Under the pieces are notes generated by a model, which did not search any database, had not been told where the DNA came from, and was given only the letters and a program-made list of their open reading frames with translations. From contig NZ_QJUE01000005.1 in the NCBI RefSeq assembly GCF_003208055.1, positions 62,001 to 126,000 on the forward strand: 64,000 nucleotides of DNA. Reading direction: 5' to 3'. Source of the DNA: Prochlorococcus marinus XMU1408. Lineage in GTDB: Bacteria; Cyanobacteriota; Cyanobacteriia; PCC-6307; Cyanobiaceae. Within the stretch, counting starts at the first letter, position 1. Every line of letters begins with the position of its first letter. Made by a program: the position numbers and the translations under genes. Positions 11,439 through 57,896 of the stretch are shown here, one piece after another.

Positions 11439-11942
11439 CTAAAGAATATTATTTTCTTCAATAGGTTTATCTTCCTCTATTGGTTGATCTTCCTCTGTTG
11501 GTTGATCTTCCTCTGTTGGTTGATCTTCCTCTATTGGTTGATCTTCCTCTGTTGGTTGATCTTCCTCTGTTGGTTGATCTTCCTCTATTGGTTGATCTTC
11601 CTCTGTTGGTTGATCTTCCTCTGTTGGTTGATCTTCCTCTGTTGGTTGATCTTCCTCTATTGGTTGATCTTCCTCTGTTGGTTGATCTTCCTCTGTTGGT
11701 TGATCTTCCTCTATTGGTTTAATTTCTACAATATTCTCTATCGAAGCACTGGTGTTTTTATTTGTGAGAATCTGAGAAATTTTTTGTTCAGATTCAGTCT
11801 CAGATCCTTTAAGCAAAAACTTTAAAACATACCTCAGAGAGACAAACAAAGCTATTGGGAGGACAAATCCTAACAAAATTTTGTAGAGAATTATTCCTAT
11901 GCTTAGGACTACGATAGAGATAAGGATGTTTTTGCTGTTCAT
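11439..11942 (-). CDS. Membrane-anchored acidic repeat protein
   Basis: 167 aa. A transmembrane region at residues 6-40 precedes a short linker and then about 14-15 tandem copies of the hexapeptide QP(T/I)EED, ending in KPIEENNIL. The long acidic tail probably lies outside the bilayer and is likely unstructured. Such tails act as spacers or cation/protein-binding arms in other systems, but no family is recognised. The repeat is encoded by a nearly perfect 18-bp unit and so may vary in length. Confidence 0.65.
   Translation of the reverse strand: MNSKNILISIVVLSIGIILYKILLGFVLPIALFVSLRYVLKFLLKGSETESEQKISQILTNKNTSASIENIVEIKPIEEDQPTEEDQPTEEDQPIEEDQPTEEDQPTEEDQPTEEDQPIEEDQPTEEDQPTEEDQPIEEDQPTEEDQPTEEDQPIEEDKPIEENNIL
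11464..11722. repeat. 18-bp tandem repeat array inside the acidic protein gene
   Basis: About 14 head-to-tail copies of an 18-bp unit (TTGGTTGATCTTCCTCTG on the plus strand). The only frequent change is G/A at the last position, which swaps Thr for Ile. The T-T-I order gives a 54-bp higher-order period with one 72-bp exception. This implies recent slippage or unequal exchange. Confidence 0.9.
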
Positions 11943-39444: not shown

Positions 39445-39518
<74 letters not shown>

Positions 39519-48209: not shown

Positions 48210-48352
48210 TAGTTTTTAACTTTCTAATAGCAAATATTTTCAATCTTAATTTTTTGTTTCTAAGAATTCTTGTATGTTTCTTAAATTCTTTTAATTAAAA
48301 CCATTAATCCTTTATTAAAATGAATGTAAACGATTTTTCTAGAAAAGCTTAA

Positions 48353-48425
48353 TGGAGCCAAGCGGACTCGAACCGCTGACCCCCTGCATGCCATGCAGGT
48401 GCTCTACCAGCTGAGCTATGGCCCC
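48353..48425 (-). tRNA. tRNA-Ala(GGC)
   Basis: 73 nt on the minus strand. Acceptor GGGGCCA/TGGCTCC (one G-T pair) with discriminator A, D arm TAGCTCAGCTGGTAGAGCA, anticodon loop ATGGCAT giving GGC, and T loop GGTTCGAGTCC. A truncated second copy lies at 50985-51034. Confidence 0.96.
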
Positions 48426-48698
48426 AAATCGTTGACATGACAGTGATTGCAATCAATCTCAAGCAACATAACCATTATACTTCACCACTCAAATATACCC
48501 AAATACACACTGCCATAAAAGGCGAAGACATAATTATTACAATCAGAACAAGGAACAGATAAATAAAGGCAAACAGAAAAGGAATATGGAATTAGAATCG
48601 ACTATTGCTTACATTGCAGAGGATCAATTTATTTTTAAAGTTTAATTTTTAGTGCAATGTATAATGCTCATTCATAGATTCTTTGCAAAACAAATAAT

Positions 48699-50768
48699 TT
48701 GACCAAGGGGAAAAGGAATCAAAAGAAAGCAGGATTGGGATTTAAAACATTCCCAGTTCCATTTTCATTAGGAGAAAGCAAAGAGAATATTACTATTTCT
48801 ACTAATACTTCTTATAAACCTTCTAAAGAACAAATAATCGATAAAGCATGTAAGCTTCATTCACAAGGAAACATTTCAGAAGCAGCAAAACTTTATCAAT
48901 ACTGTATTAATAAGGGTTTTGATTATCCAACAATTTATTTGAATTATGGAGTCATATTGCGAGATCTTGGCAAATTAAAAGAAGCAGAAACCTGTTATCG
49001 CAAAGCTATTGAACTTAATCCCAAGTACACAGAAGCTCATTCCAATCTCGGAAATGTATTGAGAGATCTTGGCAAATTAAAAGAAGCAGAAACCTTTTAT
49101 CGCAAAGCTATTGAACTTAATCCCAAGTACACAAAAGCTCATTCCAATCTCGGAAATGTATTGAGAGATCTTGGCAAATTAAAAGAAGCAGAAACCTTTT
49201 ATCGCAAAGCTATTGAACTTAATCCCAAGTACACAGAAGCTCATTCCAATCTCGGAAATGTATTGATAGATCTTGGCAAATTAAAAGAAGCAGAAACCTT
49301 TTATCGCAAAGCTATTGATTTAAATCCTAACTATGCAATAGCACACTCAAATCTAGCAAAAATTTTACAAGAGCTAGGCAACATAAAAGAAGCTGAATTA
49401 CATGTACGCAAAGCGATTAAATTGAAACCGGATTTTGCAAACGCATATTATAATTTAGGAAACATATCAAAAGATCTAGGTAACATAAAAGAAGCTGAAT
49501 CATCACAACGCAAGGCAATTAAAATTAAACCTAATTTCGCAGAAGCACATTCTAATCTAGGTCTTATATTACAAGATCTAGGCAAGTTAAAAGAAGCTGA
49601 ATTACATGTACGCAAAGCAATAGAGATCAATCCTAACTATTCAAATGCATATTCAAATCTAGGAAATATATTAGAAAATAATGGAAAATTAAAAGAAGCT
49701 GAGTTATATACACGTCAAGCAATAACTCTAGACCCAAGTCATCCAGATGCTCATTTTAACTTGGCACATATTCTTCTTAAAAGAAAAGAATTTATTGAGG
49801 GATGGCAAGAACATGAATCGAGATGGAACATGACAAATATAATGATAAGTTGCGGAAATCACCTGAAAACAAACAAGCCTGAATGGGAACCTGAGCGTAG
49901 AGGTCGTCTTTTGTTATGGCCTGAACAAGGTCTCGGTGATGAAATTATGTTTTTATCACTTGTTCCAGATTTAATTGATCATGTCGATCAATTAATCATT
50001 CAAACGGATCCAAGATTGATCCCTCTCTTACAGAGATCACTTAATCAAGCAAAAATTGAATATATACCCAAACAGGAACTTATCGATGAAAACAAATATG
50101 ATTTTCATATCGCGATGGGATCACTTCCAAAGTTCCTAAGAAATTCTTTGAATGATTTCAAAGACTCCAAACAATTCATACTAAACGTTGATCAAGCCAG
50201 ATCTAATCAATTAAGAGAACAATTAACTGATAATCGGTTCCAGAAAATTGTTGGTATTTCTTGGAAATCAATATCTCTTAGTAAAAAAAATAAATCATTA
50301 TCCCTTGAACAATTTATACTTGGTATTTATTCACCAAATATTAGATTTGTTTGCCTTCAATATGGTGATGTAACAGAAGAAATTGAGAATATAAAACAGA
50401 AACATAATATCGACATTTGTGAAGTTAAAGAAGTTGATAAGTTTAACGATATTGATGCTCTTTCTGCATTAATCAAAGCTTGTGATGAAGTTGTCTCTAT
50501 TCACAATGTCACTGTGCCATTAGCAGGAGCCCTTGCTGTTAAAACCAAAGTACTTACGGTCAGAAACAATGCATGGTGGTGGGGAATCGATGATGATGAA
50601 AGTTACTGGTATCCCTCAATCAAACTTTATAGACAAAGTCAAGATGATCAATGGGAAAAGGCCTTGCAACAAATAAAAACTGAACTTCAAGTACATCAGT
50701 CTTATGCAAATAAGACTAATCAATCAAAGATTAACTCTAATTTAAATGATGAGGAATTATCTTATTAA
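48699..50768 (+). CDS. TFPVPF-TPR protein with GT9-like glycosyltransferase domain
   Basis: 689 aa; the only start available is TTG 48699 (MTKGKRNQKKAGLGFKTFPV). TFPVPFSLGE is at residue 17, then HSQGNISEAAKLYQYCIN. About nine TPRs follow (70-360), the first four nearly identical at DNA level. The C-terminal domain begins near 375 with EWEPERRGRLLLWPEQGLGD, the usual start of TPR-linked GT9-like transferases, and includes VGISWKSISLSKKNK and HNVTVPLAGALAVKTKVLTV. It likely extends a surface glycan. It lies between tRNA-Ala and a truncated copy of that tRNA. Confidence 0.85.
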   Translation: MTKGKRNQKKAGLGFKTFPVPFSLGESKENITISTNTSYKPSKEQIIDKACKLHSQGNISEAAKLYQYCINKGFDYPTIYLNYGVILRDLGKLKEAETCYRKAIELNPKYTEAHSNLGNVLRDLGKLKEAETFYRKAIELNPKYTKAHSNLGNVLRDLGKLKEAETFYRKAIELNPKYTEAHSNLGNVLIDLGKLKEAETFYRKAIDLNPNYAIAHSNLAKILQELGNIKEAELHVRKAIKLKPDFANAYYNLGNISKDLGNIKEAESSQRKAIKIKPNFAEAHSNLGLILQDLGKLKEAELHVRKAIEINPNYSNAYSNLGNILENNGKLKEAELYTRQAITLDPSHPDAHFNLAHILLKRKEFIEGWQEHESRWNMTNIMISCGNHLKTNKPEWEPERRGRLLLWPEQGLGDEIMFLSLVPDLIDHVDQLIIQTDPRLIPLLQRSLNQAKIEYIPKQELIDENKYDFHIAMGSLPKFLRNSLNDFKDSKQFILNVDQARSNQLREQLTDNRFQKIVGISWKSISLSKKNKSLSLEQFILGIYSPNIRFVCLQYGDVTEEIENIKQKHNIDICEVKEVDKFNDIDALSALIKACDEVVSIHNVTVPLAGALAVKTKVLTVRNNAWWWGIDDDESYWYPSIKLYRQSQDDQWEKALQQIKTELQVHQSYANKTNQSKINSNLNDEELSY
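48955..49320. repeat. 102-bp tandem repeat within TPR coding region
   Basis: Three to four copies of a 102-bp unit (ATTGAGAGATCTTGGCAAAT and following) in the gene at 48699. Consecutive units are almost identical, with changes such as aca/aga at single sites. Confidence 0.85.
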
Positions 50769-50913
50769 AAAGTTTAAATGTGATCCTCAAAAGAAGACTA
50801 TTGTTTGGCTAACTACATGGGGTGATATATCATAAGTAGAAAAATATCTAAAGACAATTTCATCACTAAGTAACAATCATAATGTCGTTGTAAGACCTCA
50901 TCCACAGCGGTAA
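50749..50913 (+). pseudogene. Capsule/CDP-glycerol-polymerase-like fragment
   Basis: A frame beginning inside the end of the previous gene (ATG 50749) reads KKFKCDPQKKTIVWLTTWGD, TAA at 50833, then VEKYLKTISSLSNNHNVVVR and PHPQ before another TAA at 50911. The 'TIVWLTTWG...VVRPHPQ' order is that of the TagB/TagF glycerophosphotransferase or capsule-synthesis family. Only about 54 codons survive with a nonsense codon inside. It is a relic, not expressed as a whole. Confidence 0.5.
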
Positions 50914-51257
50914 ATTGTGCGGCAATTATCTATTACTTAACGAGAAAACCTAGTGATTGCAATAACTTTTAAGGGTTTGATTTTCTGCATGCCATGCAGT
51001 TGCTCTACCAACTGAGCTATGGCCCCAAATCGTTTTGAACTCTGTTCTATCAAGACTTTATAAAGAATTTAGTGTTTATGCCAAATTAAGATGAAAGTAC
51101 TTGAAAAAGCAATTTTGCTGAAAAAATCCGCAAAGGATTGCTAAATTCAGAATAATTTATAGTTTAGTCCCTGTAGCGGAATATTGCTAATATGATAATA
51201 AAATCTACAACAATAGCATTACTTGGAGTTACCAGATTTTTTAAATAATTGTTTAAT
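50914..51257. other. Intergenic region with truncated tRNA-Ala copy
   Basis: 344 bases without a gene. They contain the truncated tRNA-Ala copy at 50985-51034 and the 12-bp repeat AGTGATTGCAAT at 50952-50963, which also occurs at 48442-48453. Otherwise nothing recognised. Confidence 0.6.
50985..51034 (-). pseudogene. Truncated second copy of tRNA-Ala(GGC)
   Basis: On the minus strand these bases repeat the 5' part of the tRNA-Ala gene from the acceptor through the anticodon stem, plus 8 bp of its upstream flank (AAATCGTT on the plus strand). There are only two mismatches over 50 bases. The variable loop, T arm and 3' acceptor are missing, so it cannot be a working tRNA. Confidence 0.85.
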
Positions 51258-55632: not shown

Positions 55633-56031
55633 ATGGGAATGGAAAAATTTAAAAAATTGATTTTTCGACTTTTTGCTGTAATTCTTATACTCACTTCGCC
55701 CTTTATTGGATCTCATTCAGGCATGACATTATCCATAGAGAATGATTCATCTAGTTATATACAAAGAATTTCTAAATCCTATACTAAAAAATATTGCAAT
55801 GCTATTGCTTTTGGTCTCTCAAAAGAAAGTGCTATGAACTTCTCTCTAGAAGAAAACAATAAAGTATTTGAGAAAAAAAAATATATGAAACTCATAAATA
55901 AAGACGTTCTTGCTGAAGAGATAGCAATCTCTGTTGTAGAAAAATGTGGCTATCCAATCAATTTAATTGGTCAAAAAGGTATTCAAGAGTTCAAAAGTTA
56001 TTATTTATCAAAAGATAGAAAACACTCTTAA
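55633..56031 (+). CDS. Exported hypothetical protein
   Basis: 132 aa with a signal peptide at residues 1-27 (FKKLIFRLFAVILILTSPF). The mature part has YCNAIAFGLSKESAMNFSLE and VLAEEIAISVVEKCGYPINL, a compact helical domain with two cysteines. No family recognised, but the composition is regular and the gene is well formed. Confidence 0.6.
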   Translation: MGMEKFKKLIFRLFAVILILTSPFIGSHSGMTLSIENDSSSYIQRISKSYTKKYCNAIAFGLSKESAMNFSLEENNKVFEKKKYMKLINKDVLAEEIAISVVEKCGYPINLIGQKGIQEFKSYYLSKDRKHS

Positions 56032-56414
56032 GCTCATTAAAAAATAATTTACTTCAATTTATTAGCCAAAAATAGTAATTAATGAAAATCTGATCATTTC
56101 GTTTTGTTGATATATAGTCATTTTCTATCTAACTAAAAAAGCTAGCTAAAGAAGATTCTGAAGAAATTTCTCTAATATTCCAATGAATTTCAAAAGTCTT
56201 CTTTATTTTTCTTATTTTCTGCGGTTGCTCCATTAATAAAATTAAATTATCTAATAAATAAATTTACTCGCTTTTTAAAGAGTTGCCCCAAAAGAAATAT
56301 TCATAACAAAAATTCATATCAAATATTAAAGGAATAAAAAAAAACCAGACACTCTTCAAGCACGAAAATTGGGTTGGTAGAACCTTTTCAAGAGATGGGA
56401 GTACAAACTGATAC

Positions 56415-56423
56415 TTTTCCACA
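56415..56423 (+). promoter_or_regulatory. DnaA-box-like site
   Basis: TTTTCCACA, the cyanobacterial DnaA box form, on the plus strand. Confidence 0.35.
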
Positions 56424-56618
56424 TTTTTTCTGTTTCCTCATATTACAAAAAGTTTTATCCGAGAATTTTGACAAGAACTTTTTAATGTATCAAGAGATAC
56501 TAAATGCTTGAAAATTGTTGCAGGAGAAGGGTTTTTACTATACACATGATTTTCTGTAATTAATCCACTTATACAATTGCCATCGTTCCTATTGAGATTT
56601 TTTTTAAAGTATGAATTT

Positions 56619-56635
56619 TGTGGAAAAGTGGAAAA
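56619..56635 (-). promoter_or_regulatory. Double DnaA-box-like site
   Basis: On the minus strand, TTTTCCACA (56619-56627) is followed head-to-tail by TTTTCCACT (56627-56635), sharing one base. Confidence 0.35.
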
Positions 56636-56740
56636 ACTCTTTTAAAAGAGCATTTAAAAATCAAAAAAAAATAATTTTTCAATTTTTAAGAAAAGACAAA
56701 TAAGCTCTAACATCAAACACAGATAGTAGTTCTAGTATTT

Positions 56741-56881
56741 CTAGCTTGAACAAGATTTCATCTCTTCTACTTCTTTCGTTAATAAATCCAGTTCTTTTTC
56801 TAGAGCTTCCATTGTTTTAAATCCCAAGACATCAATCGTCTCATTGCCCAGTGAATTTTCAAATAAAACTTTTTCCATCAT
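56741..56881 (-). CDS. Small acidic hypothetical protein
   Basis: A 46-aa frame from ATG 56881: MMEKVLFENSLGNETIDVLG, then a helix KTMEALEKELDLLTKEVEEM ending KSCSS. Helical, probably soluble or coiled-coil. Family not recognised. Confidence 0.45.
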   Translation of the reverse strand: MMEKVLFENSLGNETIDVLGFKTMEALEKELDLLTKEVEEMKSCSS

Positions 56882-57039
56882 CTAATTTTTATTAATAAAG
56901 TAAATAATTAAAGACAAATTTCAATTAATTATGTTGAAAGTAAATTTTAGATAGTAAATAATTAGTTCATCTTGATTTATTTACTTTAAATTGCTGACTT
57001 AAAGCCTAATAGAGTCTCTTATACAGTCATATTGTAAAT

Positions 57040-57264
57040 ATGACTAATCCTTTTTCTCTTTATTGGAATAAAAACTGGACATTTCAAATTGTTCACATGG
57101 AAGGTGGGATTTACTTAGAAGCAAAAGGATTGGGAATTCAATTACGAAAACCTTTTTTACCTACTGAAAACCCACTAATTGCCGCAGATAATTTAGTTTG
57201 CATAGAAGACAAAAATAGAAAATCGTTGTTTAACTCATGGAAATCAAAAAGTTTTATAGCTTAG
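57040..57264 (+). CDS. Small hypothetical protein
   Basis: 74 aa, with aromatic-rich NPFSLYWNKNWTFQIVHMEG and YLEAKGLGIQLRKPFLPTEN. Convergent with lexA. Soluble. No family recognised. Confidence 0.5.
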   Translation: MTNPFSLYWNKNWTFQIVHMEGGIYLEAKGLGIQLRKPFLPTENPLIAADNLVCIEDKNRKSLFNSWKSKSFIA

Positions 57265-57287
57265 ATTAACTGTTTCAAAAATTTAAA

Positions 57288-57896
57288 TTAGGTTTTCCTC
57301 CAAACAGCCGCCAATTTTCCTTGAACATGCACTTGTTCAGCATCAATTTCTATGGGTTCATAATTTGGATTAGCCGCTTCTAGTCGAACTAAACTCCCAT
57401 TCCGAAAAAAATGTTTCAAAGTAGTTCCAAGTCCAGGGACCATTGCGCTAACTATGGTTCCATTTCTCAATCGAGAAGGATCATTAACAGGTTCCATTAA
57501 GACCATATCCCCATCAGCAATAAAAGAATCAATCATTGAATCTCCATTTACCGTTAAAGCAAAAAGTCCTTTTAATTGAAGTATGGAATTAAAATCCAAG
57601 GTTTCCTGAACATCATCAAAAGTTTCAACTAATCCACCTGCAGCTATTGAACCCATAACAGGAATACCGGAAATACTTTCTTCTATTAATTGCAAAGTTC
57701 TTGCTTGTCCTTCTTGCCATTTTATCCAACCTTTTTCCTGTAAGTGTCTTAAGCGACTTTGTATAGGCGCTGGAGATCTTAAGCCCATGGCTTGCATCAT
57801 TTGCCTAATCGAAGGGCTATGATGATGATTACCGATAAAATCAACAAGCCAATCGTAGAGTTCTTGCTGAGCAGTAGTTAAAGCTTCGTCAGGCAT
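57288..57896 (-). CDS. lexA: LexA repressor
   Basis: 202 aa. N-terminal winged helix (SIRQMMQAMGLRSPAPIQSR LRHLQ region, residues 20-60). The self-cleavage region has GSIAAGGL with an Ala-Gly bond, catalytic Ser in VNGDSMIDSFIADGD and Lys in GLGTTLKHFFR, so it looks cleavage-competent. It represses DNA-damage genes until activated RecA triggers cleavage. A near-consensus operator lies 29 bp upstream, suggesting autorepression. Very short spacing (about 65 bp) from argF upstream. Confidence 0.95.
   Translation of the reverse strand: MPDEALTTAQQELYDWLVDFIGNHHHSPSIRQMMQAMGLRSPAPIQSRLRHLQEKGWIKWQEGQARTLQLIEESISGIPVMGSIAAGGLVETFDDVQETLDFNSILQLKGLFALTVNGDSMIDSFIADGDMVLMEPVNDPSRLRNGTIVSAMVPGLGTTLKHFFRNGSLVRLEAANPNYEPIEIDAEQVHVQGKLAAVWRKT

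Follow-up and report, generated by a model that had tools for sequence, protein, structure and literature searches.

The tRNA-Ala gene and its partial copy

The window, i.e., the whole 64,000-nt stretch of Prochlorococcus marinus XMU1408 DNA analysed here, contains an intact tRNA-Ala gene with a GGC anticodon and a partial copy of the same gene. Between the two lie a long TPR-repeat gene and a fragment of another. The features of the locus are the following:

48352..48426, minus strand: intact tRNA-Ala(GGC) (ARAGORN)
48384..48399, minus strand: putative left att core (crossover region) in the anticodon stem-loop; edge common to 5'-half and 3'-half copies of the genus
48427..48517, minus strand: putative left arm of an element ("type A"), now the tRNA upstream region (84-95% identity over exactly that stretch in at least 8 copies)
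48442..48452, minus strand: 11-nt motif TTGCAATCACT at 16 nt from the 5' end of the tRNA (position constant in the majority of left arms, whatever their type)
48474..48479, minus strand: TATAAT, the probable -10 box now driving the tRNA (common position in 23 copies)
48699..50768, plus strand: cargo gene for a TPR-repeat protein of 689 aa (list of open reading frames, Pfam)
50751..50904, plus strand: piece from the interior of a second, different gene of TPR type, truncated on both sides (70-80% identity, 11 loci)
50907..50984, minus strand: putative right arm (together with the core 90-92% identical to the right ends in genomes G028 and G004)
50952..50962, minus strand: second TTGCAATCACT motif, starting 22 nt after the core (arm comparison)
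50985..51000, minus strand: putative right att core (repeat comparison, half-copies of the genus)
50985..51034, minus strand: putative displaced original 5' half of the tRNA-Ala with 7-8 nt of upstream flank (repeat comparison, genome search, half-copies of the genus)
51028..51162, minus strand: putative former tRNA upstream region ("type C"), still directly upstream of the intact tRNA-Ala in relatives

The partial copy extends from the tRNA 5' end to the anticodon stem-loop and includes 7-8 nt of upstream flank. Positions 50985-51034 and 48384-48433 agree at 48 of 50 positions (96%, two mismatches). With E = 3e-17 against the whole genome, the match is far beyond chance, and the repeat is real as a previous sequence-only reading had described it. 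The GGC anticodon tRNA is found only once in the 1.795-Mb genome, with the next full-length match being another tRNA-Ala at 85%. The tRNA-Arg and tRNA-Ser genes have no partial copies of their own within the window. The two cores are 2601 bp apart and read CCTGCATGGCATGCAG in the sense of the tRNA, with the crossover most likely inside the anticodon stem-loop, CTGCATGCCATGCAG. The tRNA-Ala at 48352..48426 appears to be a chimera of a native 3' half and a 5' half brought by an element. The 5' half is assigned to the element because the region upstream of it is the element's arm. The copy at 50985-51034 would be the displaced half of an attL/attR pair. The sequence-only reading had taken a copy of the 5' half as an argument against a classic attL/attR pair. 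The argument is not supported. The pair would be of a less common polarity, with the element supplying the 5' half.

The predicted uninterrupted target was built by joining the left flank in the window (to 48383) to the sequence from 50985 onward. The joined flanks match an intact tRNA-Ala with its upstream region contiguously in G002, G003, G018, G025 and G036, at 76-80% over ~200-240 nt, an identity that reflects a set of relatives holding no pair of same-species strains. The contiguous match marks 51028-51162 as the likely former upstream region of the tRNA. Comparison with sister genomes, suggested earlier as a check, favours insertion, given a single tRNA-Ala whose upstream sequence continues unbroken into the region beyond the partial copy of the window. 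The relatives do not share an arrangement with both copies and the same gene between them.

The location of the tRNA-Ala itself differs among genomes. Most relatives have the order tRNA-Arg, a DUF2214-like gene, a 132-aa gene, tRNA-Ala and LexA. In the window, the tRNA-Ala lies on the tRNA-Arg side of the DUF2214-like gene (48352-51162 versus 55633-57896), and G029 has the identical order. The 763 bp holding the tRNA in G002 are missing at 56021-56030 of the window, between the 132-aa gene and LexA. The tRNA-Ala locus appears to have moved relative to its conserved neighbors, with a rearrangement history going beyond an account of insertion. The whole block of tRNA-Ala, unit and partial copy might have been imported or moved by homologous recombination, following an insertion that happened elsewhere. 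The unusual position next to the tRNA-Arg and the empty usual place are in line with such an event, which we consider conceivable if somewhat unlikely. Block import would still leave site-specific insertion as the source of the paired ends and shift only its place and time.

Arms, cargo and larger related units

The upstream regions of the two tRNA copies are unrelated beyond 8 nt, and each matches a different class of sequences elsewhere. Homology of the left arm stops at one common point in at least 8 copies, including the copy in G032. There, an arm 95% identical to the left arm of the window is followed by an intact tyrosine recombinase gene of 423 aa. The family call for this type A recombinase is based on PHROGs integrase matches, on a weak PF00589 match below the curated cut-off and on the motifs GLR, LRHG, MGH and HYG, which are common to four such recombinases. 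Neither the list of open reading frames nor Pfam reveals a recombinase between the cores of the window unit. At a threshold of E <= 1e-5, the genome of the window encodes nothing related to the type A integrase, and its sole PF00589 protein is of a 390-aa type present in most genomes of the genus. Viral contigs yielded neither an exact hit to the right-arm pattern nor any protein related to the type A integrase or the 120-aa right-end protein, and a phage collection gave no match to the type A integrase.

On the right side, homology of the window arm stops at 50907, whereas G028 and G004 continue for several hundred bases into genes of 84 aa and ~120 aa. Both genes are present in most of the larger 5'-type units. 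G028 is an intermediate, having both arms of the window, an integrase stub of ~25 codons, cargo and the right-end genes. At locus L058 of G028 (16148 region), the first integrase codons run straight into the start of the TPR gene, as if fused by deletion. G030 carries a 12.2-kb unit at the identical core with an intact 428-aa integrase, a VapE-type helicase and other arms. An 8.6-kb unit of G004 (L040 4581-13245) lies on the 3' side of the tRNA-Ala and encodes a tyrosine recombinase and an HK97-type capsid with prohead protease. Judged by its gene content, this 3'-side unit is likely a phage satellite.

The 12-bp repeat AGTGATTGCAAT reported by the sequence-only reading is present at 48442 and 50952. 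The repeat is uninformative alone, and its position is fixed and conserved in related elements. In most left arms, regardless of type, the end of the 11-nt motif is 16 nt ahead of the first base of the tRNA, and most right arms have a related motif starting 22 nt past the core. The arms of the G030 unit carry TTGATATTACT and TTGATATAACA, and the two motifs of a pair are less alike in G001, G017 and G026. Because of the fixed spacing and the partly matching sequence, the TTGCAATCACT arm motifs are probably a site for the recombinase or an accessory protein.

The left arm may also have consequences for the expression of the tRNA. Among copies whose arms are of type A or related to it, 23 have a TATAAT at -53 to -55. 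In the window, it is at -54, and no TATAAT precedes the displaced tRNA copy. The match to a -35 box is weak, and a generic promoter scan of the window does not list the TATAAT. The element likely took over expression of the tRNA through this predicted promoter.

The gene at 48699 had been read as a TPR-glycosyltransferase. The TPR part is borne out by eight repeats detected by Pfam, and a glycosyltransferase family is absent among the matches listed for the cargo gene (25 Pfam rows). The gene belongs to a large TPR family of these islands, with 25 matching places in its own genome. The piece at 50751-50904, earlier described as decayed and "capsule-type", is indeed a gene fragment. At 11 of 11 loci in relatives, a stretch 70-80% identical to it lies within a long open frame that belongs to another type of TPR gene. 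A conserved tail of the cargo gene was considered for this stretch and ruled out in favor of an internal piece of another TPR-type gene. The unit seems to have once carried, or been joined to, a second TPR gene, of which the internal fragment was left directly against the right arm. Such a reduction supports deletion inside the element. Elsewhere in the window, an open reading frame at 11439-11942 has a long acidic EEDQPT/EEDQPI repeat at its end.

Half-copies across the genus and the origin of the unit

Searches of 41 genomes of the genus for partial copies of the tRNA-Ala recovered two classes in the alignment, 5' halves ending at and 3' halves beginning at the anticodon stem-loop, where nearly all half-copies break. 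Twenty-eight half-copies share a contig with an intact tRNA-Ala. The predicted side and strand, with 5' halves upstream, 3' halves downstream and both in the orientation of the tRNA, is found in 26 of these (P = 5e-14 versus a 1-in-4 expectation, with copies from related genomes not being fully independent). One of the two exceptions is a weak match of 25 nt, the other an inverted copy in G004. In the latter genome, the intact tRNA-Ala is flanked by three 5' halves on one side and three 3' halves on the other, in addition to the inverted 5' half. The layout across the genus points to repeated insertions at one core, which would have driven older half-copies outward on both sides with the tRNA being rebuilt each time. 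3'-half copies also occur outside the genus among the matches listed in a wider search of the family.

Several further observations concern the tRNA genes of these islands. Beside tRNA-Ala half-copies in G003, G017 and G031, there are geneless 3'-type units of ~130-145 bp consisting of barely more than two ends (L042 14301-14446, L054 12538-12683, L064 6481-6612). G003 also has a second full-length tRNA-Ala (L042 6234), decayed to 89%, in opposite orientation and of no obvious origin. The tRNA-Arg(TCT) at 39445-39518 of the window looks like a second target. Near the DUF2214-like gene, six relatives (L044, L066, L070, L079, L088, L090) have 3'-half copies that start at the anticodon stem-loop of this tRNA, and the window has none.

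A partial tRNA could also come about without any site-specific recombination, if the tRNA region were duplicated locally and a deletion followed. Both duplication and recombination occur frequently in this TPR-rich island, as the many places matching the cargo gene indicate. Yet, dozens of half-copies in many species follow one breakpoint and side rule, and elements with an integrase have matching arms. As the two upstream regions differ, we rejected duplication of the tRNA region and consider such an origin highly improbable. The sequence-only reading had pointed to a different mechanism or to duplication and deletion. Deletion is upheld inside the element, affecting the integrase, the right-end genes and most of the second cargo gene, but does not hold as the origin of the tRNA copy.

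We suggest instead that the segment between the cores very probably is an element integrated into the tRNA-Ala by a tyrosine recombinase and since reduced to its two ends and one TPR gene. The proposal builds on the paired ends with their common core, the empty site in relatives, the identity of the arms with those of larger units and the absence of an integrase. A mobile element now at ~48400-50984 would have entered by site-specific recombination in the anticodon stem-loop of the tRNA-Ala(GGC), carrying a copy of the tRNA 5' half and its own upstream arm. Integration would have restored a complete tRNA gene, now preceded by the upstream region of the element, and displaced the original 5' half with its upstream region by 2.6 kb. 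Later losses would have removed the integrase gene beside the left arm, the two small genes at the right arm and the greater part of a second cargo gene, leaving two recombination ends around a single TPR gene. The losses presumably occurred mostly in place, and the unit should now be mobile only if a matching integrase is supplied.

The unit could also have arrived small and integrase-less, moved by a recombinase in trans rather than shrinking in place. Consistent with such an arrival, an intact integrase was tallied in one of the 13 5'-type units bounded on one contig, and geneless 3'-type units exist. G004 repeats one arm-to-TPR junction in three half-copies with differing right arms, though these repeated junctions may be duplications. 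Arm-to-cargo junctions otherwise vary among genomes, and integrase stubs of varied length lie beside arms in several, as separate in-place deletions would give. The truncated second cargo gene in the window unit likewise speaks against arrival in trans, which we regard as unlikely. A more speculative scenario extends recombination in trans to the locus as a whole. The tRNA-Ala would serve as a two-sided, integron-like acquisition site. Recombinases in trans would serially add small units without an integrase, many of them carrying just one cell-surface gene, and 5'-type units would swap the promoter of the single-copy tRNA gene each time. We give such a scenario little credence.

Comparison with known systems

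Reduction in place of an integrated element leaves the window unit as what appears to be a CIME-like, tycheposon-related remnant with one TPR cargo gene. Tycheposons are a tRNA-targeting family of Prochlorococcus with sizes of 4-200 kb (PMC10872708). The unit shares with them (PMC10872708, PMC11389934) the genus or near relatives, integration into tRNA genes by a tyrosine recombinase and the presence of cargo genes. Some tycheposons are phage-satellite-like and invite comparison with the 3'-side unit of G004 with its HK97-type capsid and tyrosine recombinase. The gene content of the larger related units comprises a recombinase, a VapE-type helicase and, in a single unit of the 3' type, a capsid. 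In contrast to tycheposons, the window unit has no recombinase of its own, which is present beside the matching arm in G032, and at 2.6 kb the unit falls below their size range. CIMEs are elements that keep both att sites and have lost the genes for integration (PMC5704250). The window unit resembles them in lost integration genes, retained attL/attR and the accretion of further elements at one site. CIMEs are, however, decayed conjugative or mobilizable elements (PMC5704250), and no conjugation gene was noticed in the related units read.

Insertion of a 5' half is a rare known class and not a new mechanism. The Islander survey reported 5' fragments in 159 of 3919 tRNA islands and anticodon-centered sites in 2083 (PMC4383910). 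As in the 5'-fragment islands of this survey, the window has a tRNA with a displaced 5' fragment upstream in the same orientation, and the anticodon-centered crossover is a common subsite. Regarding the criteria for tDNA islands, the unit shows a whole tRNA with a displaced fragment on the correct side and strand, as well as an uninterrupted target in five relatives, and lacks an integrase inside the island. Islander demands such an integrase and would reject the unit (PMC4383910). The exact ends allow each inserted unit to be recognized even without a recombinase, whereas searches requiring an integrase reject such units.

The aspects of interest are the recurrent two-sided insertion and the probable promoter takeover at a single-copy tRNA. 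The former illustrates how a hypervariable Prochlorococcus island with many TPR and sugar-modification genes can expand outward to either side of a single tRNA gene. With respect to the latter, bacterial tRNA genes restored by integration nearly always retain the promoter they had (PMC8371274). The pTN3-like archaeal elements also use the tRNA 5' half, and the rebuilt tRNA is expressed from a promoter of the element (PMC8371274). In those elements, it is the promoter of the integrase that is used, and integration splits the integrase gene, whereas the integrase of the relatives studied here is intact beside the arm and reads away from the tRNA. The tRNA-Ala locus would be a bacterial case in which elements with several types of arm have repeatedly replaced the sequence upstream of a single-copy tRNA gene, a situation seldom met in bacteria (PMC8371274).
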